Origin: a virus
Reading direction: 5' to 3' (one strand)
DNA: 43,400 nt
Virus record (IMG/VR): IMGVR_UViG_3300049491_000362
Coordinates: 1 to 43,400 of that record
Part shown: piece after piece, positions 14,516 through 41,767 of the stretch
How the letters are laid out: each line of letters starts with the position of its first letter
Position numbering within the stretch: position 1 is the stretch's first letter
Notes under the pieces: generated by a model
What the model saw: the letters and a program-made list of their open reading frames with translations, nothing else
Databases searched by the model: none
Told to the model about the DNA's origin: nothing
Made by a program: the position numbers and the translations under genes

Positions 14516-15141
14516 AGCTTCGTTCCGTAAGTTACATCTCCGACGATTGCCCGCTGGACGCCCTTGTCGAGTTGGCTCCATGCGTAGTCCGTTTCGTCGG
14601 TGATCTCGAAATGTCCTCCCGCTTGGCAATAGGTGCTGTCTGGATACAACCGCCGCAACACCGACAGCCAGCCCGCAGGCGCGTTGCTCTTGGGCTTCTG
14701 CGCATCTCCGCTGCTCTTGCCGCGTGCATCGTAGCCAATCGTGGCGTCGGCCTTGTTGAGCCAATTGATGAAGCGGCGGCGGCTCATCTCGCGCTTGTTG
14801 CCGCTCGCCCAAACCTGCGCCTTACCCAGCTCGCGGCGCACGTCGACATAGCGATAGCACTCCATGACCTCAAGCGAGCGCAACCATTCGTCGTCCGTCG
14901 TCGTTGCTGTAGTCTGCGCCCGCTTTGCTTTCGGTGCGGGTGCAGCCGTCAAGGAATCCTTGACAGCTGCATCGGCAAGCGGCGCGGGCGGGAACTCAAT
15001 CGCCAACTGCGCACGAATGGCGGCGGCGGCGTGCGCAAGCATAAACTGCGCACCGGGGTTCGCCGCCGCGTGCGCGTTCTTCGCGGCGACTACGGCGCGG
15101 GCAATGCGCAGCGCGGCGTCGTCAGTTGGTGTAGTGCTCAT
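14512..15141 (-). CDS. Unknown early protein
   Basis: 209 residues: an Ala-rich helical N-terminus (about 1-70), a K/T/P-rich linker, then a globular domain (ECYRYVDVRRELGKAQVW ... GGHFEITDETDYAWSQLDKG). Its ATG overlaps the stop of the helicase-methylase gene, so its expression is coupled to that enzyme. Family not recognised. Confidence 0.55.
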   Translation of the reverse strand: MSTTPTDDAALRIARAVVAAKNAHAAANPGAQFMLAHAAAAIRAQLAIEFPPAPLADAAVKDSLTAAPAPKAKRAQTTATTTDDEWLRSLEVMECYRYVDVRRELGKAQVWASGNKREMSRRRFINWLNKADATIGYDARGKSSGDAQKPKSNAPAGWLSVLRRLYPDSTYCQAGGHFEITDETDYAWSQLDKGVQRAIVGDVTYGTKL

Positions 15142-17375
15142 GATAGAGTCAGCTCAGATTGAGCCGTTGCCTCTTTGAGGTTAGCGACTGCCGTATCGCA
15201 ATAGCTCCTCTTCAATTCAGAGCCAACAAACTTGCGGCCAAGCTTGAGCGACATGAATCCTTCGCTTCCGATGCCGGTAAACGGCGAGTAAACGAGGTCA
15301 CCGCGATTACTCCAAAGAGTCACGGCTCTTTCAATCACGTCCAGTTGTAACGGGCAGATGTGCTTTTCGTCATCGCCTTCGCGCGCTCCGGATCGGTTGA
15401 GGACGTTGGTTTGCCGAACGTCCATCCATACCGGCGACGCCCACTCCTGCCATTGGTCCAACGGAAAAGACTCCTTTGTATGCTTCACAGGATTGTCCTT
15501 CATGGCGTCAGGCTCGGACCACTTGCGAAAGACCATGAGGTATTCAGCCATGCCTGTGCGCGTGTATTTAGAATTCTGGCGAAGCTGCTTATAAAGCAAG
15601 CCCTGAGCCTTGGTGCGCTGCATCTCAATGACAGGGTCTTTCCATATCGTGACTTCGGAGTGATATGCCCATCCTGCCTCAACGTGGGCGCGGATAATCT
15701 CGCCTCGGAAGTCGCGCATCCCGGCGGCACCGTCCCTGTTCGCGTAGTTCACGAGGTTCTTGCAATGAACAGCGGATAGACACCCAGGCTTAGTGATGCG
15801 CAGTTTATCCGCGATGAGGAATTTGTAGTGCGTGAAAAACTCTGCATCGCTCGAGCAATTGCCCATGTCTTGAGCGTCGGGCGAATAGATGTAGAGCGAC
15901 GCAAACGGCGGCGAGTAAACAGAGAAGTCAATTGAGTTGTCGGGAATCGTTCTGGCGACACGGACGCAATCGCCGTGGTGCAGAGTCCAGCCTTCGCCTG
16001 TCATGGTTTCAATTTTAGTAATCATAGAGAGAGATTTTTCGCCGTTGTTGCGGAACGCTTTTGCGGCGACCTTCATTCGTTCCTGCATCTTTTGATGCGC
16101 TTCAATTTTGCGTTTAACTACGGCGAGAATCGCGCCCTCGTTCCGACCTTGCACAATCCAAGCGTTCACTGGCTTCTTTTGGCCGAATCGATATGATCGG
16201 CGAAGTGCCTGATAAAATTCCTCGAAAGAATAGGATAGTCCGACAAAAGCGACGTTCCTGCAATGTTGCCAATTCAGCCCAAATCCCGCGACTCCCGGTT
16301 TAGTAATAATCACGCGCTCTTTTCCATACGTGAACAGGTCGAGCTTCTTTTCTTTGTCCGATGCGGAATCAGATCCGCGCACCTCAATCGCCGATGGAAT
16401 GACCTTCTTCAATTCGTCAGCTTCATAGTTTGTATTGCACCACACTACCCACGGTTCACGCGATGCGTTCACCTTCTCAGCGACAGCGGCGCAACGTGCC
16501 GCGCACGATATACGCATCTCACGATGAATCGTCGTGGCATTCAGTTCAGGATTACGAAAAAACTCTCCGTCCTCAGCGTCGACCTGTTCATCCACTTCTA
16601 CAACGATGGACTGCATCTTGAGCGCGGGTAGCACGTAAGCTGCACCGTCAAATCCTATGTCGGCCGGCGAAGAAATGCACGCGGACCACGATCCCATCCA
16701 ATTCCAAAAGTCTGCCTCAGCGTGCGCCTTTAGCCGATACGTTCCAAAGTTCATCGTGTCGTTAATGAACCACCGTGCAAGCATCTCGTTTGACGGCATG
16801 ACGCCGAGAAACTCGACGTGCTGTCCAATCTCCATGAAGTCATTTGGTGCAGGCGTTGCCGTGCAGCATAGGCGATAGGGCGTGCGCTTGAACGCCGCCG
16901 TGAGCGCAATGCGCGTCTTGCCCATGAAGTTTTTCAGGATGCTCGATTCGTCGAGAACGACGCCGACGAATTGCGAAGTGTCGAAATGTGCGAGCTTCTC
17001 GTAATTCGTAATGAAGATTCCCGCACCGGTCACATCGGATTGCGTTTCAACGACAGTTGCGGCGACGCCAAACTTCTTCGCCTCCGTAGCGGTTTGATGC
17101 GCGACGGCGAGCGGCGTTAGAATGATGACTGCGCCTCCGGTATGTTGGACTACTTGCCGCGCCCACTCTAATTGCTGGAGTGTTTTCCCGAGTCCGCAGT
17201 CTTCAAACAAAGCGGCGCAACCTTGGCGAACAGCCCACTTCACAACGTGCGCTTGCCAGTCGAATAGCGGAGCGACTATCGGCATGGGTTCAAATCCTGA
17301 TGCGCGAGGAAGCTTAGTCTTAGAAGCGATGAATTGATCGTAGTCTGTGGACATTGGTAGTGGTGAAGCTGACAT
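15138..17375 (-). CDS. SNF2-type helicase fused to DNA methyltransferase
   Basis: 745-residue fusion. Helicase part: Walker A EDCGLGKTLQ (58-67), DEAH-like LDESS (141-145), TATP (172-175), and motif VI QALRRSYRFGQ (about 387), the SNF2 form. Methylase part: catalytic SPPF at about 487 and the SAM loop FTGIGSEG at about 697. Motif IV before motif I is the beta-class order; SPPF favours N4-cytosine or N6-adenine methylation. It may remodel and methylate phage DNA, for example against host restriction. Longer starts exist (a TTG at 17468); the first ATG was chosen, and an ATG at 17354 is possible. The gene looks less GC-rich than its neighbours. Confidence 0.82.
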   Translation of the reverse strand: MSASPLPMSTDYDQFIASKTKLPRASGFEPMPIVAPLFDWQAHVVKWAVRQGCAALFEDCGLGKTLQQLEWARQVVQHTGGAVIILTPLAVAHQTATEAKKFGVAATVVETQSDVTGAGIFITNYEKLAHFDTSQFVGVVLDESSILKNFMGKTRIALTAAFKRTPYRLCCTATPAPNDFMEIGQHVEFLGVMPSNEMLARWFINDTMNFGTYRLKAHAEADFWNWMGSWSACISSPADIGFDGAAYVLPALKMQSIVVEVDEQVDAEDGEFFRNPELNATTIHREMRISCAARCAAVAEKVNASREPWVVWCNTNYEADELKKVIPSAIEVRGSDSASDKEKKLDLFTYGKERVIITKPGVAGFGLNWQHCRNVAFVGLSYSFEEFYQALRRSYRFGQKKPVNAWIVQGRNEGAILAVVKRKIEAHQKMQERMKVAAKAFRNNGEKSLSMITKIETMTGEGWTLHHGDCVRVARTIPDNSIDFSVYSPPFASLYIYSPDAQDMGNCSSDAEFFTHYKFLIADKLRITKPGCLSAVHCKNLVNYANRDGAAGMRDFRGEIIRAHVEAGWAYHSEVTIWKDPVIEMQRTKAQGLLYKQLRQNSKYTRTGMAEYLMVFRKWSEPDAMKDNPVKHTKESFPLDQWQEWASPVWMDVRQTNVLNRSGAREGDDEKHICPLQLDVIERAVTLWSNRGDLVYSPFTGIGSEGFMSLKLGRKFVGSELKRSYCDTAVANLKEATAQSELTLS

Positions 17376-17470
17376 GTGGAAAGATTGTTGCTCGCGTATT
17401 TTCGCACCCGCACGAGCGCGGTCGTTGGCCTTGGTGTGCGGGGTGGCTCCGCAGATTCCTCCCGCCAAAG

Positions 17471-24763: not shown

Positions 24764-25000
24764 ATGGATACACCAACACCACGAACAGACGCACAGAACT
24801 TCGGCGCATCCTGCGCAACCGATTTCTGTCGGACGCTCGAACGCGAAAACATCGCGCTCCGCGCTGCTTTGGAGCTAGAGCGCGCAGAAAATCTGAAACT
24901 GAAACAAGGGGCCACGCTGTTCGATCTTGAAATGTTTGTAACGCGGCAAGCCTACCGACTGACGGACGCGCTCAAGGCGAACGCCTCGCATGAGCCATGA
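24764..25000 (+). CDS. Cassette 9: coiled-coil unknown
   Basis: 78 residues. The middle (FCRTLERENIALRAALELER) and the following residues form a coiled coil, then FDLEMFVTRQAYRLTDALK. The ATG follows a T-rich leader 8 bases past the right box of attC H; the frame is open further upstream through the site. Function unknown. Confidence 0.55.
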   Translation: MDTPTPRTDAQNFGASCATDFCRTLERENIALRAALELERAENLKLKQGATLFDLEMFVTRQAYRLTDALKANASHEP

Positions 25001-25074
25001 CCTGCGCGCCTCTACAATCTAGCACCACATCACCGCGTGACGCGCAGGGCATTGGCTCTGGGCGATTGTTGGGC
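24976..25074 (+). other. attC-like site I
   Basis: Right box GTTGGGC matches GTTRRRY exactly; left box GGCGAAC. GAGCCATGACCTGCGCG pairs with CGCGCAGGGCATTGGCTC apart from one mismatch and one unpaired base. Loop about 25-30 nt; the ORF stop is inside the left arm. Confidence 0.78.
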
Positions 25075-25077
25075 CGG

Positions 25078-25707
25078 GTGCTGGTGGCCTGCGAATACTC
25101 CGGCGCGGTGCGCGATGCCTTCGCGGCTCGCGGCTGGGATGCCTGGAGCTGCGACCTCCTGCCGAGCGAAAAGCCTGGCAACCACTTCGTCGGCGACGTG
25201 CGCGAAATTCTGGCCGATGGCTGGGATATGATGCTCGCCTTTCCGCCATGCACCCATCTCGCGTGCTCGGGTGCTCGCCACTTCGCTAAGAAGCGAGCAG
25301 ACGGACGCCAGCGCGCAGGCGTCGAACTATTCATGGCCTTCGCTCGCGCTCCAATCCCACGAATCTGCATCGAAAACCCCGTGGGCATCATGTCGAGCGT
25401 CTGGCGTGAACCTGACCAGATAATCCAACCCTACTATTTCGGGGACGAGGCGCAAAAGACGACGTGCCTATGGCTCAAGAATCTACCACCGCTTCAGCAC
25501 GCCTCAGAAGATGACTGGTTTGCGGCGAAAACGCACGTCGGGCGCGGAGCGATGCACTACTTTTCGAGCGGGAAACGCATGGCCGCGCATCACATGCTTT
25601 CGCGCATTGGCGCAGGCGGTGCGGGAAAAGGACGAAGCCGAACCTTTCCGGGGATAGCTCTTGCGTTCGCAGACCAATGGACGCGCGCCACACGGCCCAA
25701 CTCCTGA
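25078..25707 (+). CDS. Cassette 10: C5-cytosine methyltransferase-like protein
   Basis: 209 residues from a GTG directly after the right box of attC I. Motif I is replaced by VACEYSGAVRDAF; the catalytic PPC loop is AFPPCTHLACSG (about 54-65) and the ENP motif is RICIENPVG (about 95-103). These are the hallmarks of the short C5-cytosine-methylase-like proteins common in phages, which lack a full target-recognition domain. It could methylate phage DNA or be a nucleotide-modifying relative. The longer ATG-started frame (24997) would be encoded partly by the attC. The stop lies 4 bases beyond the left box of attC J. Confidence 0.72.
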   Translation: MLVACEYSGAVRDAFAARGWDAWSCDLLPSEKPGNHFVGDVREILADGWDMMLAFPPCTHLACSGARHFAKKRADGRQRAGVELFMAFARAPIPRICIENPVGIMSSVWREPDQIIQPYYFGDEAQKTTCLWLKNLPPLQHASEDDWFAAKTHVGRGAMHYFSSGKRMAAHHMLSRIGAGGAGKGRSRTFPGIALAFADQWTRATRPNS

Positions 25708-28291: not shown

Positions 28292-29263
28292 ATGCAATCA
28301 CTCGGCGGAACTCAACTTCGGGCAGACCTTCGCGGCGTAGCGGAAGAAGCCTATCTCCAAAGCGAACTTTACATCGGGCCGAAGGTGCTTCCCCCGTTGT
28401 CCGTATCGGCCAAGGCCGGACAGTATCCTTACATCTCGGTCACGTCCGGTTCGCTCCTCCGCAACGAGGTCAAGCGCCGCGGGCCGAGTGCGAACTACGC
28501 CCGCATTGCGCGGTCGTTCTTCAGCGACAACTACACGTGTCTCGAATACGGAATTGAGGCCCCTGTTGACGATAGCAACGCGGCCGACGTCGCACGCTTC
28601 TTCCCGCTGGAGGCGACGGAGACCCGCCGCGCTCTCGGCCAGGTGCAGCTCGCTCACGAGATCCGTTGCGCCGCAAAGGTGTTTGATCCTTCGGTGTTCT
28701 CGTTGACGACCAGCGCGACGGCCTACACGACGGCCAACCTCTCCACGTTCGACCTCGGTCTGGATGTGGACACGGCCAAGCAGGCGATCCAAGCTCGCGG
28801 TGAATCGACCGAAGGGCTCACAGTTGTCATGTCGCTCCCGATGTTCAATCGGGTGCGTGCTTCCACCCGTATCCAAAATCGCATTCGCGGCACCATCTCG
28901 ACCGACTCTCAGCTGGTCCTCACGAAAGATGCGCTCGCTGCGTGTCTCGACGTCAAAGAGGTGCTCGTCGGTTGTGCGGCCTACGACACGAGCAAGCAGG
29001 GCGCGGCCTCGCCGGTTATGTCGAACATCTGGTCCGACTCATATGTCTGGCTCGGTCGCTGCGTGCCGGGTGGTTCGCAAGAGCAATACTTCAACGGCTC
29101 GACGGGCTTTACGCTCTTCTGGAACGAGGATGCTTCGATCTTCCAGGTCGAGAGCTACCGCGAGGAAGACATTCGCTCCGTCATCGTCCGTGCTCGGCAC
29201 AACGTCGCGGAGAAAATCGTCATGGCGACGGGCGCGCAGCTCTTGGTCAGTCAGTATAGCTAA
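28292..29263 (+). CDS. Major capsid protein
   Basis: 323 residues, beginning MQSLGGTQLRADLRGVAEEAYLQ with segments YIGPKVLPPLSVSAKAGQYP, FFSDNYTCLEYGIEAPVDDS and LGLDVDTAKQAIQAR. The order N-arm, spine helix, beta-rich A-domain (SYVWLGRCVPGGSQ, GFTLFWNEDASIFQVESYRE) fits the HK97-fold capsid proteins of the lambda gpE-like group. Followed by a strong terminator, consistent with high expression. Confident because of gene context. Confidence 0.82.
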   Translation: MQSLGGTQLRADLRGVAEEAYLQSELYIGPKVLPPLSVSAKAGQYPYISVTSGSLLRNEVKRRGPSANYARIARSFFSDNYTCLEYGIEAPVDDSNAADVARFFPLEATETRRALGQVQLAHEIRCAAKVFDPSVFSLTTSATAYTTANLSTFDLGLDVDTAKQAIQARGESTEGLTVVMSLPMFNRVRASTRIQNRIRGTISTDSQLVLTKDALAACLDVKEVLVGCAAYDTSKQGAASPVMSNIWSDSYVWLGRCVPGGSQEQYFNGSTGFTLFWNEDASIFQVESYREEDIRSVIVRARHNVAEKIVMATGAQLLVSQYS

Positions 29264-29293: not shown

Positions 29294-29323
29294 AAGCCGC
29301 CTCCGAAACGGGGCGGCTTTTTT
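29294..29323 (+). terminator. Rho-independent terminator after major capsid gene
   Basis: AAGCCGCC and GGCGGCTT form an 8-bp GC-rich stem with a 10-nt loop, followed by a run of six T. It separates the capsid transcript from the glycosyl/TPP island. Confidence 0.85.
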
Positions 29324-29382: not shown

Positions 29383-29553
29383 ATGGCAAAAGCAAAGACG
29401 ACGACAGCGACCAAGCCGGTGCGCGTGAACCGCGTGCAACTCCCGACGCAGCGGGTGAAGCAGACGACGATTGATAAGCTGGAGCGGATGCGTCCGGTGC
29501 ACAAAGGGCTCGGCAAGGCAATCGACTACGCGGTGGAGGCGGCGAAGGAATGA
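29383..29553 (+). CDS. Ribbon-helix-helix-like regulator candidate
   Basis: 56 residues from MAKAKTTT: VNRVQLPTQRVKQTTIDKLE, then HKGLGKAIDYAVEAAKE. A short strand followed by two helices, with the second like RHH proteins (xGKAIDYAVE). An in-frame start further upstream would add 12 poorly coded residues. Its stop overlaps the next ATG (ATGA). Likely controls the island's expression. Confidence 0.45.
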   Translation: MAKAKTTTATKPVRVNRVQLPTQRVKQTTIDKLERMRPVHKGLGKAIDYAVEAAKE

Positions 29554-31304
29554 GCTCAGGCGCGACCATTTCCCTCTGCGTCATCACGGGCAACGAAGCG
29601 CCCGCGGTCGTCGGCTTTCTCGACTCGTTCAAGGACGCGTTCGACGAGCTGTGCATGGTGCGGGCCGTCGGCTCATTGGAGCACGACAGGACTCTGGCAA
29701 TGGCCCGGCTCTGGTGCGCGCAGAACGGCAAGAAGTGTCAGCTAGGCGAATACAAGAACGGCGCGGCGGCAGCGGAATGGCCGCACGTGGACGACTTCGC
29801 AGCGGCACGGAATCAAGCGTGGGCGCTGGCTACGTGCGACTGGCAACTATGGGCGGACCTCGACGACATGCTTGTGGCCAAGCCGGCCGACGGCGAGGGC
29901 GGGGCGGAACTGATTCGCCTTTGCGCGGGTGCGGGCAGTCACGATTTCTTTTTCTTCACCTACGATCTTCGCGGGCAACACGAGAAGAACGTGCGCGAGC
30001 GGTTGTTTCGGCGCGGCATCGCCCGCTGGACGAATCCGATTCACGAGACGCTACGCGAGATCCCCGTGGATACGGGAGCGACGCAGCGCAAGGCGCTCAT
30101 TGAGGAGCGCGTGGTGTTTGAGCACGCTCCGCAAGCGGAGAAGGCACGCGACCCGCTGCGCAATCGGCGCATCATGGAGCATCACATGCGCTACGTTCAC
30201 GCCTACGCGTTTGAGCTGCATCGGGAATACTACTACGAGTGGCAGGCGACGAAGACCAAAGAGGCGGCGGAGGCGGCGACGAAGTGGGCGGAGATTGCTC
30301 ACGAGACCGATTGCCTACCGGAGCAACGCTACGACATGCTGCTCCATCAAGCAAACATCGTCAGCGGGCGCGACTTGGAGCACGCGCTTGACCTCGTGTG
30401 GCAAGCGGTGCGCATCAATCCGAAGTGCCGGGACGCGTGGGGCGACCTAGCTGAATACGAGATGCGACTCGACCGCGGACCACGGGCGGCGGTGGCCACG
30501 GGCTTCATGCAATCCATCCCGAAAGCGGCGGTGTGCGGATATCCGCAATCGCAGAAATACTTTGGGTGGACCGGCGCACACCTGCGGGCGCGTAGCCTGC
30601 GGGCAGCGGGCAAGGACGACGCGGCGCGGCAGACGGAGGCGGTGCTGTTCGAGAAGCACGGGAAACTGATCTCGTTGCTTCACGCGACTCGCGGCCGGCC
30701 GGCGCAGGCGCTCGCGTGTCGCGAGGCGTTCTTCCGCGCAGCCAACGTGCCGCTCGGCATTGAGCATATCTTCGCAATCGACGCCGACGATGCAGCCTCG
30801 CTTGCGGCGCTGAAGGATTACCGTCACGTAGTGGTAAAGGAACCACGCGGGTGTGTGAAGGCGTGGAACGCAGCGGCAGCGGAGAGCACGGGCGCGGTGC
30901 TGGTGCAGCTCTCGGACGACTGGCTCCCGTGCTACAATTGGGATGATCTCGTGGTGGAAGCTCTCGGGGACCTCACCGCTCCGAAGGTGCTCGCAATCCA
31001 CGACGGTCACCGCAACGACGCGCTCCTCTGCATGGCTATCCTGACACGGGCGCGCTACGAGCAACAGGGGCGCGAGATGTTCGCGGCGGAATACTTCGGT
31101 GTTTTCTCGGACAACGAGTTCACGGTTCGAGCCTACCGCGACGGCGTAGTGGTGCAGGCACAACACATCGTGTTCGACCACCGGCACCCGATATTTGAAG
31201 GCAAGCCCGTAGAACAATGGGACGAGACGCACCGCCGCCAGAACGCCGCCGAACGCTACGCCGAGGGCGAGGCAATCTTCAAACGCAGGAACCCAACACC
31301 ATGA
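29550..31304 (+). CDS. Double GT-A glycosyltransferase (two GT2-like domains)
   Basis: 584 residues. Domain 1 begins TISLCVITGNEAPAVVGFLD and has DDFAAARNQAWALA and a DxD-like LWADLDDML (about residue 102), the plan of SunS-like GT2 enzymes. A TPR-like helical middle (residues about 200-350) follows. Domain 2 begins ISLLHATRGRPAQALACRE (about 372) with KAWNAAAAESTGAVLVQLSDDW (SDD near 455) and FGVFSDNEFTVRAY. The two sites could add two sugars in sequence. First enzyme of an ATGA-coupled series ending with the TPP enzyme; glycosylation of virion or host surface is inferred. Confidence 0.78.
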   Translation: MSSGATISLCVITGNEAPAVVGFLDSFKDAFDELCMVRAVGSLEHDRTLAMARLWCAQNGKKCQLGEYKNGAAAAEWPHVDDFAAARNQAWALATCDWQLWADLDDMLVAKPADGEGGAELIRLCAGAGSHDFFFFTYDLRGQHEKNVRERLFRRGIARWTNPIHETLREIPVDTGATQRKALIEERVVFEHAPQAEKARDPLRNRRIMEHHMRYVHAYAFELHREYYYEWQATKTKEAAEAATKWAEIAHETDCLPEQRYDMLLHQANIVSGRDLEHALDLVWQAVRINPKCRDAWGDLAEYEMRLDRGPRAAVATGFMQSIPKAAVCGYPQSQKYFGWTGAHLRARSLRAAGKDDAARQTEAVLFEKHGKLISLLHATRGRPAQALACREAFFRAANVPLGIEHIFAIDADDAASLAALKDYRHVVVKEPRGCVKAWNAAAAESTGAVLVQLSDDWLPCYNWDDLVVEALGDLTAPKVLAIHDGHRNDALLCMAILTRARYEQQGREMFAAEYFGVFSDNEFTVRAYRDGVVVQAQHIVFDHRHPIFEGKPVEQWDETHRRQNAAERYAEGEAIFKRRNPTP

Positions 31305-31528
31305 ACGACACCAAAGAAGATTTGATTGCGCAGGGATGGAAGATCACGAGCGACGGCCCCTCGGGGACGCAGCTTGAGGAGCCGAAGCGGATGAACAAGC
31401 GCGAGGGATTCGCCGTAGTCGCCGGCATTGCTCTGCTCCCGGCCTACGGGTTCGGGCTTATTATCATTCTCGCCGCGTTCGTTGACCATGTAACGCGCAA
31501 GCCAAACGTCCGCTTCTTCTCCCGATGA
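31301..31528 (+). CDS. Small membrane protein A of the glycan island
   Basis: 75 residues: a soluble start (KEDLIAQGWKITSDGPSGTQ) and one membrane helix (about 40-63, VVAGIALLPAYGFGLIIILAAF) with a basic tail. ATGA overlaps with genes on both sides. Possibly a membrane anchor or partner for the glycosyltransferase. Confidence 0.6.
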   Translation: MNDTKEDLIAQGWKITSDGPSGTQLEEPKRMNKREGFAVVAGIALLPAYGFGLIIILAAFVDHVTRKPNVRFFSR

Positions 31529-31707
31529 GCAACAACCCCGAGACCAACCTTGCCGCGGCCTCCGTGGTCATCGGTGTTCTCGGGTGCGCGCTTGTCGTGA
31601 GTGGTCTCGGAGGGCCGACTAAGCCGCTCGCTCAACTCGCGCTGGGAATAATCTTCGTTGTATCTGCTTTCTCACTATTCGCCCTAGCTTGGAAAAACAA
31701 ACCATGA
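31525..31707 (+). CDS. Small membrane protein B of the glycan island
   Basis: 60 residues with two hydrophobic helices (AAASVVIGVLGCALVVSGL, then ALGIIFVVSAFSLFALAW) and a short basic tail. Overlaps both neighbours by 4 bases. May form a membrane complex with small protein A; no known family. Confidence 0.55.
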   Translation: MSNNPETNLAAASVVIGVLGCALVVSGLGGPTKPLAQLALGIIFVVSAFSLFALAWKNKP

Positions 31708-32522
31708 TCAAAGTTCACCGCACGCATTGCGCTCTCCGCCTCGGGGACAACCTCGCCCACCTGCATTTTTTGCGGGCGCTCGCCAAAGAAAATCCGACGC
31801 ATCACTTCATTCACTTCGCTCACCTCTGCTACATCGCGCAGCTGTCCGAGGTCGTGTGCGACCTGCCGAACGTGCAGGTGTTGAGCCTGGAGCGCGTGAG
31901 CGCACCGCCGAAGACGCCGCTGGAATTTTGGACGATGAAGCCGATGCACATGGAGAGCATCGACGCATGGAAGAATGCGGGTCACTACTGGGAGCGGCAC
32001 CCGCTGCGGCTTAACTACGCGCAGTTTGCGCTTGGTCTCGCGGTGAAGTTATCGGAAGCGATGGGACTACAAAGCCCGCTGCGCTGCGTGCAAGATTTGC
32101 AGTTTTCATACCCGGCACTTGAGGCATGGAACTATGAACCGTTCGACGTGCTCGTGGTCAACTCGACGCCGCGCAGCGGACAGCTTCCGGCCTACAATGT
32201 GAAGGAGATGAACCACGTCATAGGCCAACTCTCCAACCGCTACAAGGTTATCACGACTGCGCCGACGCCGCATAGCTGCGGGTGCACGCAGGAACACGGG
32301 ATGACTGTTTCACAGATTGGGGCGCTGTCACGCTTCTGCAAATACATCATCGCGGTGAGCACGGGACCGAGCTGGCCGACGTTCAATGTGTTCAATGCGC
32401 AATCAGTCCTGCTTCGCTACGTGCTGATTGATCGTGAGGAAGTGAAGATTTCCCCGCGCACCGTGAACTTGAACAACGTCAGCAGCCTCGGTCACGAGCT
32501 TTCCATCGCGGGCATCCTATGA
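31704..32522 (+). CDS. Heptosyltransferase-like GT-B glycosyltransferase
   Basis: 272 residues. The start LRLGDNLAHLHFLRALAKE resembles the GDxL..xPxLRAL opening of GT9 enzymes, and the C-terminal SRFCKYIIAVSTGPSWPTFN corresponds to the donor-site segment (usually DTGPxH) with S/T-G-P retained. Shorter than typical GT9 proteins (about 320-350). Probably transfers a sugar to the same acceptor as the double enzyme. Relationship is by pattern, not alignment. ATG chosen within the ATGA overlap. Confidence 0.65.
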   Translation: MIKVHRTHCALRLGDNLAHLHFLRALAKENPTHHFIHFAHLCYIAQLSEVVCDLPNVQVLSLERVSAPPKTPLEFWTMKPMHMESIDAWKNAGHYWERHPLRLNYAQFALGLAVKLSEAMGLQSPLRCVQDLQFSYPALEAWNYEPFDVLVVNSTPRSGQLPAYNVKEMNHVIGQLSNRYKVITTAPTPHSCGCTQEHGMTVSQIGALSRFCKYIIAVSTGPSWPTFNVFNAQSVLLRYVLIDREEVKISPRTVNLNNVSSLGHELSIAGIL

Positions 32523-33043
32523 GCTACAAAAGCGAAATCACGGATGCGATGACAGCAATGGGGCGCGACCCGCTGACGTGCTTCCTCGGATACGGTGTGC
32601 GCAACGGCAAGGCCGGCGGCACGCTCGCGCGCGTGGATGAGGCGCAGCTGATCGAGACGCCGGTAGCGGAGAACTTGATGACCGGGCTGGCCATCGGACT
32701 CGCGCTCGCGGGCCGGCGTCCCGTGGTCTATTTTGAGCGCATGGACTTCATGCTGTGTGCGGCTGATGCAATCGTGAACCACCTCGACAAGATGGCCGTG
32801 ATGAGCGCGGGCGAGTTCAGCCCCGGCGTCATTCTGCGGTGCGTAGTGGGCAACACGCGCAAGCCGCTGTTCACGGGCGAGACACACACGCAGGACTTCA
32901 CGGACGCTTTCTCGAAGCTCCTCAAGATGCCGGTGATGACGTTGAACTACGAAGCGCACATCGGAAGCATTTACGCGCAAGCGCAAGAGGCGCAGCGTTG
33001 CGGCGGCTCAACCATGATCGTCGAATACAAGGACAAGCTCTGA
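32519..33043 (+). CDS. TPP enzyme, pyrimidine-binding half (E1-beta/transketolase-like)
   Basis: 174 residues. RVDEAQLIETPVAENLMTGL carries the TPP-activating Glu (E51) of the Pyr domain; ALAGRRPVVYFERMDFMLCA and ADAIVNHLDKM with VMSAGEFSPGVILRCVVGN match E1-beta/transketolase Pyr domains. The usual C-terminal domain is absent (classic E1-beta is about 325 residues). The partner PP half is 1 kb downstream, separated by the dehydrogenase gene. Probably both halves form one active site and transfer or decarboxylate a 2-keto acid or ketose unit; substrate unknown. Confidence 0.75.
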   Translation: MSYKSEITDAMTAMGRDPLTCFLGYGVRNGKAGGTLARVDEAQLIETPVAENLMTGLAIGLALAGRRPVVYFERMDFMLCAADAIVNHLDKMAVMSAGEFSPGVILRCVVGNTRKPLFTGETHTQDFTDAFSKLLKMPVMTLNYEAHIGSIYAQAQEAQRCGGSTMIVEYKDKL

Positions 33044-34038
33044 TGCGCGCCGCGATCCTCACCGAACTGAACGCACCGCTGACGCTCGACGACGTAGAGC
33101 CGGCGGCACTACGCTACGGGCAGGTGCTCGTCCGCGTTCTAGCTGCTGGCATCTGCGGAGCACAACTCCAAGAGATTCGCGGCGAGAAGGGAGGGCCGCT
33201 CCCCCACCTACTCGGACACGAAGGATGCGGCATCGTCGAGGCCATTGGCCCGGGCGTGACGCGCATGAAGGAAGGCGACAGGGTAGTGATGCATTGGCGC
33301 AAGGCGGCGGGCATTGAGTCGGCGTTTCCTGAATACGTTTGGAACGGGCGGACGATGACTAGCGGACTCGTGACGACGTTCGCGGAGAAGTCGATTTGCT
33401 CTGAGAACCGACTGACCGCAGTGCCGGACGACACGTCGATTGACCTCGCCGTCCTGCTCGGGTGCAGCCTATCGACGGCACTTGCCGCCGTAGAACAGGA
33501 GTCGCGGAAGTTTGGGGAGAACGTGCTAGTCATCGGCCTTGGCGGTCTCGGCTTGTCGCTACTCGCGGCGCTCGATCTGACGACGCCCGCTCGCGTGTGC
33601 ACCTGCGACATTCACGAGAACAAGCGTCGGCGGGCAGAGATTGCCGGGGCAGAGTTCGTGAACCTCACGCGCGAGAAGGTGTCGGGAAAATTCGATTTGA
33701 TCTTGGACACCGCCGGAAGCGCGGAAGCAATGGAGACCGCGCTTGAAACGAACCTCGCGCCGTCTGGTCGCTACGTGATGGTCGGACAGCCCGCACCGGG
33801 AAAGCCCGTGTGCATCCGTAACGCTCGCCACCTCTTCGACGGCGAGGGCAAATCCATTCGCGCGACGCAGGGCGGCGGCTTCCGGCCTGACGTGGACATT
33901 CCCCGCTACCTCCGCGCTGCCGACAATCTCCTTGTGCACAACTTACTCACTCACCGCTTCCAGCTCGCGGAGATCAACGCAGCCCTAGACCTAGTGCGAG
34001 CGGGCGAAGCGGGGCGAATCATCATTGAAATGACATGA
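33043..34038 (+). CDS. MDR-family alcohol dehydrogenase of polysaccharide-cluster type
   Basis: 331 residues. Catalytic zinc ligands in GICGAQLQEIRG and LLGHEGCGIVE; NAD(P) loop VIGLGGLGLSLLAAL. The section GDRVVMHWRKAAGIESAF and SGLVTTFAEKSICSENRL resembles dehydrogenases found beside glycosyltransferases in bacterial polysaccharide clusters. The four-Cys structural-zinc loop is missing. Overlaps the Pyr-half stop (TGATG) and the PP-half start (ATGA), so the three are co-produced. Likely oxidises or reduces a sugar or keto product. The open frame extends upstream, but the ATG at the overlap is best. Confidence 0.78.
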   Translation: MRAAILTELNAPLTLDDVEPAALRYGQVLVRVLAAGICGAQLQEIRGEKGGPLPHLLGHEGCGIVEAIGPGVTRMKEGDRVVMHWRKAAGIESAFPEYVWNGRTMTSGLVTTFAEKSICSENRLTAVPDDTSIDLAVLLGCSLSTALAAVEQESRKFGENVLVIGLGGLGLSLLAALDLTTPARVCTCDIHENKRRRAEIAGAEFVNLTREKVSGKFDLILDTAGSAEAMETALETNLAPSGRYVMVGQPAPGKPVCIRNARHLFDGEGKSIRATQGGGFRPDVDIPRYLRAADNLLVHNLLTHRFQLAEINAALDLVRAGEAGRIIIEMT

Positions 34039-34694
34039 ACCACGGACACACAGCGGAAACGCTCATTGCATTTGAACAGCGCATCGTCGGCCTGTTCGCC
34101 GCGGGCGAGCTGCCGTTCCTCGTCCATCTCAGCGGCGGCAACGAGGCGAAGCTATTGGAAATATTCCGCGACGTGCAGCCCGGTGACTGGATCTTCTCGG
34201 GGCACCGCAGCCATTATCACTACTTGCTCGCGGGCGGAAGCGAAGACCACCTTGAAAAGTTGATACGCGACGGGCGCTCCATGTTTGTGTTCGACCGCTC
34301 GCTCAACTTCGTCACGTCGTCCATCCTCGCGGGCGTGTGCTGTCCGGCGGCGGGCGTTGCGTTGGCACTGAAGCAAGCGGGGAGCGCGGCGCGCGTGTGG
34401 TGCTTTCTCGGCGACGGCGCCGAGGACAACGGGCATTTCTGCGAAGCGGTGCGCTACGCCGAGGGCCACGGGCTACCCGTGCGCTACGTCATAGAAGACA
34501 ACGGACGCCAGGTTGACACGTCCTATCGGGAGCGGTGGGGAACTGAGCGGCGCTGGCAGTGGGACAACAGCCCGTGCGTGCTCCGTTACCATTACACGCC
34601 GACGTTCCCCCACGGGGGCGCCGGCTTGCCAGCGGGCTCCGTGAAGTTCCGACCGGAGATAGTGGAGAGGTTTGCCAATCGCGGGCGCTCTTGA
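34035..34694 (+). CDS. TPP enzyme, pyrophosphate-binding half (E1-alpha-like)
   Basis: 219 residues, shorter than E1-alpha (about 320-360). The TPP-Mg motif is CFLGDGAEDNGHFCEAVRYA ending with VRYVIEDNG (GDG at 126-128, N at 132 and 156). An E1-alpha-like HRSHYHYLLAGGSED precedes it. It lacks about 100 residues of the family core, chiefly near the ends, but all cofactor residues are present. Pairs with the Pyr half encoded upstream. Its TGA is within the next TTGACGC element. Confidence 0.75.
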   Translation: MNHGHTAETLIAFEQRIVGLFAAGELPFLVHLSGGNEAKLLEIFRDVQPGDWIFSGHRSHYHYLLAGGSEDHLEKLIRDGRSMFVFDRSLNFVTSSILAGVCCPAAGVALALKQAGSAARVWCFLGDGAEDNGHFCEAVRYAEGHGLPVRYVIEDNGRQVDTSYRERWGTERRWQWDNSPCVLRYHYTPTFPHGGAGLPAGSVKFRPEIVERFANRGRS

Positions 34695-34709: not shown

Positions 34710-35051
34710 ATGGCGATTGACACCAGCTACTTCGCGTCCGACCTCGCGGCAATGATTGCCGACCTCCCGTGCGTGGCGCAGTTCGGCGCAACTGAGTTCA
34801 ATTGCGCGGCGAGCAACCTAGAAGAAAGCGAGGCGCTATTGCTCACCGGCAACGACAGCGGGGCGGCGATCCGTATCGTGTTCCCCGTGACGGCGTTCAC
34901 GGTCACGAGTGCGTTCAAACCACAGGCGCGGTTGTCGCTGAAGTTCCCGTCGCTGACGGCGTTCACGGCCTACGAGATCGTCACCATTGCGAAGTCGCCG
35001 GACGCGATTGGCTACGAAGTAGTGCTGAAGGCTGACAACCGGAGGACGTAG
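34710..35051 (+). CDS. Head-tail completion protein candidate
   Basis: 113 residues, beta-rich (RIVFPVTAFTVTSAFKPQAR, LKFPSLTAFTAYEIVTIA), the size of small joining proteins (gpFII-like). First gene after the glycan island and upstream of tail-terminator candidates. The neck role is inferred from order. Confidence 0.5.
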   Translation: MAIDTSYFASDLAAMIADLPCVAQFGATEFNCAASNLEESEALLLTGNDSGAAIRIVFPVTAFTVTSAFKPQARLSLKFPSLTAFTAYEIVTIAKSPDAIGYEVVLKADNRRT

Positions 35052-35055
35052 CGCC

Positions 35056-35727
35056 GTGGCTTCGGGCAAAGATACCGGCCTCAGTGTGAAGACGACGGAG
35101 TTCAGCGGCTTTTTGCGTGAGCTGAAGAACAAGCTCGGCGACAAGACCGACATGAAGACCATCGTGAACTACGAAATGGGTCGTGTTTTGAATAAGGCGC
35201 TCGCGCTCACGGGAAAGGCTGACGAAGCGAAGATCGAAGCACGATGGGCAAACGCGAAGGCTCTGCGCGTCGGCGGTATAAATGGGCGGTTGGTCTGGCT
35301 CACGAACAAGAAGACAGGACGGCTACAACATTTTCCCGATGCAAAATGGAACGAGCTGAAGTCGGTGCGGGCAACGTCACTGGCGCGGGCGCTCGCAAAG
35401 GTCGGCGCAGCGAAAGCAAGCTGGGCGGCAGCGGCACGGAAGCTCGGGCAGAAAATCACGGTGCCGCAATACGTTGAAAACGTCGTCATCAAGAACGGCG
35501 TGGACCGATTCGCAACGGTGGACAAGGACGAGGGCGCGATGAACTACGGCGTGACGGTGCTGAACAATATGCGCATCCTCAACCGCGCACCCGAAGGACG
35601 CCAGGCGCTGTTCGCGGCGTTCGCGGGCCGCGTTGGATTCTATCGGCAAAACATGGCTCGCGGCGTATTCGACTCAATCGACAAGCTCACAGCGAAATAC
35701 AAAGGCGTCATCGTTCGGAAGTCTTGA
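35056..35727 (+). CDS. Minor structural protein (neck or gp10-like)
   Basis: 223 residues from GTG, preceded by GGAGGA 13 bases upstream, one of the few good Shine-Dalgarno sites here. Basic, Lys/Ala-rich: MGRVLNKALALTGKADEAKI, then VGAAKASWAAAARKLGQKIT and GRVGFYRQNMARGVFDSIDK. Location suggests an HK97 gp10-like head-tail protein. Its stop TGA is within the next TTGACGC element. Confidence 0.5.
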   Translation: MASGKDTGLSVKTTEFSGFLRELKNKLGDKTDMKTIVNYEMGRVLNKALALTGKADEAKIEARWANAKALRVGGINGRLVWLTNKKTGRLQHFPDAKWNELKSVRATSLARALAKVGAAKASWAAAARKLGQKITVPQYVENVVIKNGVDRFATVDKDEGAMNYGVTVLNNMRILNRAPEGRQALFAAFAGRVGFYRQNMARGVFDSIDKLTAKYKGVIVRKS

Positions 35728-39415: not shown

Positions 39416-41767
39416 ATGGGCCAATCATTCGACGGCAGTTTCACGGCAGCGGTGCAACACGGCACTAAGCAAATCAGCCTGCCGCTTCAGCACGACGGCA
39501 ATTTTTACGCGACGTGCGTGAAGCGCAATTACATCGCGGCGCCGGCGTCGGGCTACGAGCCGATCATCGGGCAGCGCACGGCCTACACCGCGCTCTTGAA
39601 GTATTCCGACGACCTCTCAAACGCCGTGTGGACAAAGGCCGCGAGCACGGGCACCGCGAGCGCCGGCACCGACCCCGAGGGCGGCACGACGGCAACGAAG
39701 CTCGCAGAGGACAACACCAACGCCGCGCACAATGCGTCACAGGTGATGACCGTAGCAGCCGGCGCGCTGTCCTTCGGCGTGCTGGCAAAGGCCGCAGAGC
39801 GCACGCAATTCCGCCTCCGCATCTACAACGCCACGGACGGCTCGCTTGGCTCGACGGTGTTCAATCTCTCGACGGGAGCTATCACGAGCGGCACGGGCGC
39901 AATCAAGAAACTCCTGAACGGCTGGTATTGGTGCAGCGTGCAGACGACACCCACCGTGACCAACTCCACCGCGTTCATTGACCTCACCAACGACGGCAGC
40001 ACGTTCAGCTACACGGGCACGACGGGCAGCGGCGTCTTGCTCTGGCGAGCGACGGCCTACCTTGCCGCCGCCATCGGTCCCGCCGTAGCCACTACGTCGG
40101 TCACGCGGGCCGTAACGTCGCCCGCTGTCGATCCTGACGACCCGCTGGCGTTCCTCGTGGACGAAATGGAGCCTGACGCTTCCACGCTGGAGCTTGGTGT
40201 GGCACGATGGGGGCGGGAATACGCCAACGTGCCGGCGGAAATCACGGTTCCGACCTCCGTGCAACTCACGAAACCTTCGCTCACTGGAACTTTCCCGCAA
40301 GTTTTCGGGAGCTATCGGTTGTTTCAGCCCGACACGACGTTGATCCAGTATGATGCCTATACGGCGCAGACAGTAATAAGCGATAGCGGTGCACCGTCGC
40401 TCACTCCCACGGGCGGAACCTACACCCTGACATTTGGTGGTTATACTACCGGAGCCATCGCCTACAACGCCGTAGCCGCGACGGTGCAAACTGCCCTGAA
40501 TGCGCTGACCTCGTTCACTGACCGGGGTAGCTGCGTTGTTACGGGTTCTTACACGGCCGGTTTTACTATAACATTCAATAGCTACGCCCAAATCACGATC
40601 AATACCGGCTCGCTCACCGGCGGAACCATCACGGCACCCGTCTCGCTCACGAATGGCGGCTATACCCAGATAGTGCCGGCATACCTCGGGCCGTTTCCCT
40701 ACGTGCTGACGGGGGGCGTGGATACCTCGGCGATTACAAATGGTGATGGAGGCTACGGGCTCGGCTCTAGTTTCGGGTATTACAACGGTAAATACATTGA
40801 TGTTTATCTCGGCGGAAATGGTGGAGCCACGGGAGGATCATTCACCATTTCGACCTACGCAACAACCTCCGGTCCTATCGCCTACAATGATAGCTTCGCA
40901 ACGATTGGGGCCACGCTCAATGCAATGGGTATCGGCAATTGCACCGTCGGCGCTCACCCGAGCTGGCCGGGCGATACCCAGCCGCTCAATTCCGGTGCGA
41001 TCCGATTCCGCATAACCTGCACGTCAGGCGCGGTCACGGGCGGCACATTCACCATGACCGCTTTTGGCAGCACAACAGCCGCCATTGCCCACAACGCCAC
41101 ATCCGCGACAGTTCAGGCGGAGCTCAATGCGCTCTCGGCCGTCGCGAATCGCGGAAACTGCATCGTGTCCGGCCACCTAACGGCCGGATTTACAATCGAA
41201 TTTGCGAATGCGGTAATGACCGGCGCGGCCGGTTCGCTCACGCCGACGAGTAGCATTTCGCTTTCCCTCTCCGATGGGACGATTGGCCGCATCCAATCAT
41301 ATACGCTCGCGAGCACCACGGCAACGCGCGATCTCTACGTTCCCGATCACGGATTAGTCATCGGGAATGTGTTATACGTGCGCAGCGGCTCAACCTATTA
41401 CTCAGCTATCGAGACATTCACCGTGCCGAGTGAAAACATAATCCGGCTCAATGTGTTTGCCTCGTCCTCCTACGTCGCCGCCGGCACTATCACCGAGGTC
41501 GGCAAGCGCACGAAGCAATCATACGCGCCCGGCCTCGCATCACTGCGCGCGAGCCGCGTCACCGACTACTACTTGCCCGGTCTTACGCTCGGCATCGCTA
41601 CGGCCTCGGACATTGTAGTCCCGGCCAATCAAAGCGACGGCGCGGCGTTCCTCGAAGCGGTGTTTGCCGGCTCTGGCACGATCAATTACGCCGTTGGGGA
41701 CCTTGCCTTTTGGCGCGGTCCGATTCTCTCCGTCGCAAAAACCACGCTTAACGCCGCCGACGTGTAA
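39416..41767 (+). CDS. Large beta-repeat minor tail protein
   Basis: 783 residues. An N-terminal tail-tip-like part, a jelly-roll-like domain (YSDDLSNAVWTKAA ... NGWYWCSVQ), then three related modules starting near residues 332, 472 and 541 with GG(T/S)(Y/F)T(L/I/M)..., ...IAYNAVAATVQTALNAL and TAGFTI(T/E)F. These Ig-like repeats resemble those of phage tails and of surface proteins in Planctomycetes and Verrucomicrobia. Probably tail tip or fibre base; it stands in for the usual lambda L/K/I/J set, which was not found. Confidence 0.68.
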   Translation: MGQSFDGSFTAAVQHGTKQISLPLQHDGNFYATCVKRNYIAAPASGYEPIIGQRTAYTALLKYSDDLSNAVWTKAASTGTASAGTDPEGGTTATKLAEDNTNAAHNASQVMTVAAGALSFGVLAKAAERTQFRLRIYNATDGSLGSTVFNLSTGAITSGTGAIKKLLNGWYWCSVQTTPTVTNSTAFIDLTNDGSTFSYTGTTGSGVLLWRATAYLAAAIGPAVATTSVTRAVTSPAVDPDDPLAFLVDEMEPDASTLELGVARWGREYANVPAEITVPTSVQLTKPSLTGTFPQVFGSYRLFQPDTTLIQYDAYTAQTVISDSGAPSLTPTGGTYTLTFGGYTTGAIAYNAVAATVQTALNALTSFTDRGSCVVTGSYTAGFTITFNSYAQITINTGSLTGGTITAPVSLTNGGYTQIVPAYLGPFPYVLTGGVDTSAITNGDGGYGLGSSFGYYNGKYIDVYLGGNGGATGGSFTISTYATTSGPIAYNDSFATIGATLNAMGIGNCTVGAHPSWPGDTQPLNSGAIRFRITCTSGAVTGGTFTMTAFGSTTAAIAHNATSATVQAELNALSAVANRGNCIVSGHLTAGFTIEFANAVMTGAAGSLTPTSSISLSLSDGTIGRIQSYTLASTTATRDLYVPDHGLVIGNVLYVRSGSTYYSAIETFTVPSENIIRLNVFASSSYVAAGTITEVGKRTKQSYAPGLASLRASRVTDYYLPGLTLGIATASDIVVPANQSDGAAFLEAVFAGSGTINYAVGDLAFWRGPILSVAKTTLNAADV

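Follow-up and report, generated by a model that had tools for sequence, protein, structure and literature searches.

An island in an uncultured phage that couples a split thiamine diphosphate enzyme and an exchangeable redox partner to glycosyltransferases: a possible sugar-branching module

The IMG/VR virus record IMGVR_UViG_3300049491_000362, which in its entirety (43.4 kb) forms the window analysed here, comes from an uncultured phage and carries among its structural genes an island of seven overlapping genes that extends from 29550-31304 through to 34035-34694 (Table 1). The products are a double GT-A glycosyltransferase (GT2), two small membrane proteins, a GT-B protein (GTB), the two halves of a split thiamine diphosphate (ThDP) enzyme, termed PYR and PP, and, encoded between these halves, a medium-chain dehydrogenase (MDR). 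A previous reading of the DNA made without database searches, referred to here as the sequence-only reading, had described the same translationally coupled series, and its account of the locus holds up well. All of its open reading frames (ORFs) are present; the seven genes could be assigned part by part through Pfam, PHROG and fold comparison, in agreement with the identities proposed for both glycosyltransferases, both ThDP halves and the dehydrogenase, and the two small ORFs do possess hydrophobic spans. Each junction of the island has an overlap of 1-4 bases in the form of ATGA or TGATG, including that between GT2 and a preceding 56-aa ORF, and the location between capsid and tail genes is borne out by a phrog_1005 head protein upstream and tail-region ORFs downstream. 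The terminator that was said to precede the island is present as a hairpin with a T-run, although terminator-like sites in the island region are not enriched over shuffled sequence (9 against 7.1 +/- 2.9). The gene-order search in phages that had been recommended shows that dozens of viral contigs have these genes clustered together, and the island is therefore not a chance arrangement.

Table 1. Position and character of the island genes and of the features that flank them.
Feature	Position	Strand	Description
Major head protein	28292..29263	+	Upstream of island; phrog_1005 3.8e-36
Terminator-like intrinsic hairpin	29294..29319	+	Between head gene and island; AAGCCGCCTCCGAAACGGGGCGGCTT + T-run, 10-bp stem
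Small basic ORF, 56 aa	29383..29553	+	ATGA-coupled, 4-bp overlap with GT2 start
GT2, 584 aa	29550..31304	+	Two GT-A domains with a helical, TPR-like (tetratricopeptide repeat-like) linker
Small membrane protein, 75 aa	31301..31528	+	One hydrophobic span
Small membrane protein, 60 aa	31525..31707	+	Two hydrophobic spans
GTB, 272 aa	31704..32522	+	GT-B protein, heptosyltransferase (GT9/WaaC/TibC) fold
PYR, 174 aa	32519..33043	+	Pyrimidine-binding half of split E1-type ThDP enzyme
MDR, 331 aa	33043..34038	+	Zinc-type medium-chain dehydrogenase
PP, 219 aa	34035..34694	+	Diphosphate-binding half of split E1-type ThDP enzyme
Two ORFs	34710..35727	+	Downstream; homologues come after the island in related phages L068, L080 and L181

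Central to the island are the two ThDP halves. PYR matches Transket_pyr (E-value 1.8e-8), the E1-beta subunit of pyruvate dehydrogenase (PDH; 6e-17) and the C-terminal half of phrog_34187 (4.9e-48), while PP contains a GDG motif and matches E1_dh (1.4e-13), PDH E1-alpha (1.8e-19) and the N-terminal half of the same phrog_34187 (5.9e-68). The E1-type PP and PYR domains are borne on two chains, as they are in enzymes of the alphaKADH2 type. The curated PDH E1 cut-offs are missed by a wide distance (69.8 against 393.85 and 61.5 against 321 bits), and a Pfam scan of the island genes reveals none that is E2- or E3-like. It is well supported that PYR and PP together make up a single minimal ThDP enzyme of the E1 type, because they are fused in one protein (phrog_34187) right after the MDR gene in the cyanophages P-TIM68 and S-SM2, and because both are gone from phages that have a transketolase (TK) instead; this joint exchange of the two halves is strong evidence for a single functional unit. 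The loci sampled for such comparisons were the best matches of each scan rather than a random draw, and the counts given here and below describe the sample and not abundance. Of 155 distinct sequences of PP, 146 keep the GDG motif, and the exceptions listed come from cellular contigs. The glutamate motif of PYR is kept in 138 of 153, where some of the misses may merely fail the pattern used. Together with the motifs of MDR, such conservation in most family members argues for active enzymes, and the catalytic inactivity that would have counted against the sequence-only reading is not evident.

The ThDP enzyme is exchanged as a unit among closely related viruses. Four phages (L199, L203, L205 and L206) contain a split TK pair and are without PYR and PP, and in comparison with the nearest E1-type phages they are 97-98% identical in GT2, 93-96% in GTB and 95-98% in a radical-SAM (radical S-adenosylmethionine; rSAM) protein that is found in the position of MDR; across the swapped phages the identity of these three proteins to those of E1-type phages spans 92-98%. 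At the level of DNA, L199 and L191 are 91% identical over the GT2-GTB segment and 92% identical over the rSAM gene, with 1.8 kb that encodes TK-N, TK-pyr and a methyltransferase-like protein replacing PYR, and with PP missing behind rSAM. The methyltransferase-like gene beside the transketolase cassette (L199:5309-6001) matches Methyltransf_25 at 2.7e-4, which is below the cut-off. The MDR-type viruses L118, L119 and L132 also have a split TK in place of the E1-type pair, and in L079, L087, L111, L120 and L126 a full-length E1 alpha/beta pair has MDR on one side and an HldE-type kinase on the other. None (0) of the sampled loci combines a pair of the E1 type with one of the TK type. Three ThDP enzymes replace one another in this position: minimal E1, as in the window, full-length E1 alpha/beta and split transketolase.

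A second exchange concerns the redox enzyme. MDR of the window is of the zinc type, with an ADH_N domain (1.7e-17; 64 bits against a cut-off of 23.5), catalytic-zinc motif residues and a nucleotide fold; it matches phrog_2640 at 4.9e-72 and falls narrowly below the cut-off for ADH_zinc_N (31.1 against 31.8). Among distinct sequences of the family GHEG is found in 84/84, the first Cys motif in 83/84 and the second in 78/84. The first 47 relatives of the island mostly have the order GT2-GTB-PYR-X-PP, where X is an rSAM protein with a SPASM/twitch-like C-terminus, and PP-bearing loci contain either rSAM (120) or MDR (103), never both (0) and occasionally neither (11). When 66 non-redundant PP+PYR pairs are placed on a tree, the partner must change at least six times, with at least five of the changes forced by well-supported branches, and MDR and rSAM have therefore repeatedly replaced each other. 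The two enzymes are unrelated, yet interchangeable in the redox slot. A precedent for such a replacement within one oxidation is provided by the BtrN/NeoA pair, where MDR enzymes such as NeoA oxidise 2-deoxy-scyllo-inosamine. The same compound is oxidised by the rSAM enzyme BtrN, whose auxiliary cluster has four Cys ligands (PMC9012708). The phage rSAM proteins contain CX3CX2C in 77/78 distinct sequences and four further auxiliary-cluster Cys residues, also in 77/78. The comparison with BtrN is one of analogy only, since BtrN is absent from the PDB profile matches at E<=0.01 and membership of its group is not supported, which makes the rSAM enzyme a putative dehydrogenase; by that analogy MDR and rSAM may be functionally equivalent. 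Two further arrangements were observed around this slot: in L080 (9086-9655) and L181 (7426-7995) a gene that on visual inspection resembles FkbM-type methyltransferases stands between those for MDR and PP, and on deltaproteobacterial and archaeal contigs from metagenome-assembled genomes (L053, L054, L059) PP/PYR have beside them one or two divergent radical-SAM genes of another kind.

The family names E1_dh, Transket_pyr and ADH_N could suggest ordinary auxiliary metabolism, with pyruvate or acetoin oxidation accompanied by an alcohol dehydrogenase and with no tie to glycans. This is highly improbable and was rejected on the truncated halves, the gene linkage and the exchange pattern: the halves do not include the E1-beta C-terminal domain, no E2/E3-like gene is seen in the island, a radical-SAM enzyme can take the place of MDR, and the relatives adjoin glycosyltransferase and sugar-nucleotide genes, such that sampling finds the island in the company of glycan genes.

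What is it that the glycosyltransferases modify? GmaR, SunS and ThuS act on proteins or peptides, and it is these enzymes that GT2 most resembles. It matches phrog_13126/phrog_14945 and Pfam Glycos_transf_2, and a profile search with the N-terminal half places GmaR (4e-19), SunS (7e-12) and ThuS (4e-8) nearest and also reaches TPR proteins, while in Foldseek ThuS and SunS rank first (1.5e-12). With a GT-A profile, a fold likeness of this sort, TPR-like helices, and DxDD and SDD motifs that are kept in its relatives, GT2 is predicted to be a protein glycosyltransferase. The resemblance to the SunS/ThuS S-glycosyltransferases and GmaR resides in the N-terminal GT-A domain and TPR-like helices; unlike them, GT2 has a second GT-A domain, and no precursor peptide was seen. 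For GTB there is no Pfam family match at E<=1 and no PHROG family, and membership of the GT9 sequence family is not borne out. Its structure model (pLDDT 96) nevertheless finds 3tov (1.3e-7), WaaC (6.5e-7) and TibC (1.5e-6) in Foldseek with a TM-score of about 0.5, and the top 23 matches are all GT9, WaaC, heptosyltransferase II or TibC entries. GTB has in common with WaaC and TibC the fold and a conserved Gly-Asp near the N-terminus (G14-D15, invariant in 28 relatives), but it is shorter and only about 12-15% identical. TibC is a protein heptosyltransferase (PMC4358343). A role in DNA modification was rejected, as the GTB profile match to DNA alpha-glucosyltransferase is insignificant (E 0.6).

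The sequence-only reading had left the acceptor as either virion or host surface glycans, and the likeness of the N-terminal domain of GT2 to protein glycosyltransferases favours protein. It is doubtful, rather than probable, that the same chemistry targets a host envelope glycan (lipopolysaccharide core or O-antigen), which would block superinfection or change a receptor and in which the small membrane proteins would help at the inner membrane. Cyanophage and bacterial relatives do sit in clusters of the envelope-sugar type, and small hydrophobic ORFs occupy the same place between GT2 and GTB in L080 and L181; the 75-aa membrane ORF itself has no homologue in the relatives' loci that were fetched. 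Set against this are the resemblance of GT2 to TPR-containing protein and peptide glycosyltransferases and the position of the island among structural genes, with the head gene region immediately preceding it in phages with two head-protein families (phrog_1005 and phrog_283).

The module is found mainly in viruses. A profile scan places PP relatives on at least 522 IMG/VR contigs and at no fewer than 16 confirmed loci in 84,980 bacterial and archaeal genomes (one per species), several of the 16 being on short, possibly viral contigs. A broad cellular distribution is not supported, as searches in 289 and in 287 genomes of two phyla matched the seed genome alone. A viral scan with one fused PP-PYR protein recovered only itself, and in 50,697 phage records tblastn found no match to the window head protein and a single partial match to its GT2. 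The family is found in sugar-nucleotide clusters of cyanophages, of a 735-kb phage and of bacteria, beside HldE-, HldD-, HddA- and HddC-type genes. Non-redundant MDR-type loci contain an HldE-type kinase in 41/61 cases, HldD in 30/61, SIS in 24/61 and an SDR (short-chain dehydrogenase) in 22/61, and a Pfam scan of neighbours finds PfkB in 15, SDR in 12, FkbM in five, DegT in three and GHMP in three of 102. A link between the island and glycan biosynthesis is strongly supported by these neighbours, and the relation to glycan loci that had been anticipated persists in wider sampling. In cyanophages P-TIM68 and S-SM2, which carry MDR and "transketolase central region" genes, MDR is homologous to that of the window (49% and 47%), as are PP/PYR, but the latter are fused, they lie in large sugar-nucleotide clusters and GT2 of the window kind was not detected alongside. 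Loci L061-L065 (Verrucomicrobial, Methylacidiphilales and Acidimicrobiales) adjoin genes for a GHMP kinase (HddA-type), an HddC-type nucleotidyltransferase and a DegT aminotransferase.

The same neighbours underlie the main rival explanation, in which the ThDP enzyme, extending a chain in the manner of transketolase or DXS, supplies a heptose-type pathway with a straight-chain higher ketose, MDR or rSAM modifies the ketose or a derivative of it, and GTB transfers a heptose-like sugar. Ketol transfer is the ordinary transketolase reaction, GTB has a heptosyltransferase fold, the MDR-type family is strongly linked with HldE kinase, HldD, SIS isomerase and nucleotidyltransferase genes, and HddA/HddC-type neighbours occur in Verrucomicrobia. 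We nonetheless regard it as unlikely. The occurrence of full-length E1 alpha/beta in this slot points to a 2-keto acid as the donor, a radical-SAM enzyme would be an unusual companion to ketose-phosphate chemistry, and heptose kinase and isomerase genes are missing from the island as they are from nearly all rSAM-type loci.

A different chemistry has been described or proposed for enzymes of these classes. According to a 2025 review (PMC12247030), alphaKADH2 (E1-type) enzymes use pyruvate to place C2 branches on keto-sugars, and split-gene TKs have been proposed to add hydroxyacetyl to a keto-sugar made by an oxidoreductase; the C2-branched sugars are described from bacterial secondary metabolites, with the split-TK step unverified in vitro (PMC12247030). 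Because the phage module has the same parts list, a redox enzyme plus either of these ThDP classes, C2-branching is the best-supported mechanistic reading by analogy, and not a demonstration. The likeness to the alphaKADH2 carboligases (KbDH-alpha/beta of kibdelomycin, and the aldgamycin and avilamycin enzymes) extends to a two-subunit E1-type enzyme with a redox partner, and to full-length E1 alpha/beta in the same slot of related phages; the window halves differ in being minimal, viral and coupled to glycosyltransferases. The antibiotic split-gene transketolases are paralleled by the TK pair that replaces the E1-type pair in near-identical phages, whereas the window itself is of the E1 type, and the antibiotic TKs have not yet been assayed (PMC12247030).

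From the families, linkage and swaps we infer a donor, product, acceptor and biological role as follows, with a probability of roughly 0.45 that the island, which is compact and lies among structural genes, tailors a sugar into a C2-branched form and glycosylates protein with it. Such a role is compatible with the suggestion of the sequence-only reading that an unusual sugar or keto-derivative may be made and attached. MDR, or rSAM elsewhere, would convert a hydroxyl group into a ketone on a sugar that comes from the host and is probably nucleotide-activated, and to this ketone the ThDP enzyme would add a two-carbon unit to give a C2-branched sugar. With the E1 type the branch would be an acetyl derived from pyruvate, and with the transketolase type a glycolyl derived from a ketose. 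The SDR of many MDR-type clusters could then reduce the branch ketone. GTB, with its GT9 fold, and the double GT2, with its likeness to GmaR and SunS, would place the sugar, along with its primer, on a protein. A virion protein is the most likely acceptor, since the genes lie between head and tail genes and GT2 resembles protein glycosyltransferases. The sugar may be heptose-like, given that members of the wider family are accompanied by HldE/HldD/HddA-type genes and that the fold of GTB is that of a heptosyltransferase; the branching and heptose readings become compatible if it is a heptose that is branched. Mycobacteriophages are an earlier example of phages with glycosylated virions (Freeman 2023, cited in PMC12691614), with no ThDP/redox sugar module in the available part of that account.

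Several points weigh against this proposal. The fold matches of GTB and GT2 are at superfamily level only (TM about 0.4-0.55), PYR is without the E1-beta C-terminal domain and matches E1-beta profiles in their N-terminal part only, and within the PDB the rSAM profile reaches MoaA, BlsE and DesII but not BtrN. The island has no nucleotidyltransferase, kinase or SDR, and the substrate must therefore come from the host. The exchanged enzymes need not catalyse the same reaction and, as the TK pair arrives with a methyltransferase-like gene, the swap may alter more than one step. The substrate, product and acceptor are themselves assignments that we infer.

With regard to the remainder of the window, the small basic ORF that follows the terminator-like hairpin and is coupled to GT2 is a possible regulator; scanned as a longer 68-aa frame, it has no significant Pfam or PHROG family match. 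Downstream of the two ORFs that end Table 1 come a tail chaperone-like ORF (weak, 6.5e-4) and large tail-region ORFs, among them a 783-aa protein (39416-41767, +) whose PHROG major tail/sheath matches fall mostly within about 283-406, a short stretch that is possibly an Ig-like domain. In a 776-aa protein (15138-17468, -) SNF2/helicase domains are followed by a C-terminal N6_N4 DNA methylase domain, and a second DNA methyltransferase is found at 24997-25707 (+; phrog_757, 9.5e-61). Recent foreign acquisition of the island was rejected on composition, its GC content of 0.621 not being distinctive against 0.607 overall.

The two redox partners, the three ThDP enzymes and the protein-glycosyltransferase likeness of the N-terminal half of GT2 are additions to the sequence-only reading. 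Taken together they allow a more tentative proposal, that phages possess an exchangeable "sugar-branching cassette" in which a redox slot and a ThDP slot occur in mixed combinations that would give different C2-branched sugars on virion proteins. To our knowledge no earlier viral pathway of this kind has been reported, and a literature search, in which subscription journals were thinly covered, found no description of the module. The parts and the general chemistry are already known; it is for the viral, compact and exchangeable arrangement that no earlier account was found. If true, the cassette would provide natural evidence that split transketolases branch ketones as the E1 type does, and the near-isogenic phages with a swapped ThDP class, along with the repeated MDR/rSAM swaps, constitute a directly testable set of candidate keto-sugar-branching enzymes. 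A hypothesis is thereby offered for the "transketolase" and "alcohol dehydrogenase" auxiliary genes of cyanophages, and the swaps suggest that phages diversify a surface sugar by enzyme exchange, as if trading sugar chemistries.

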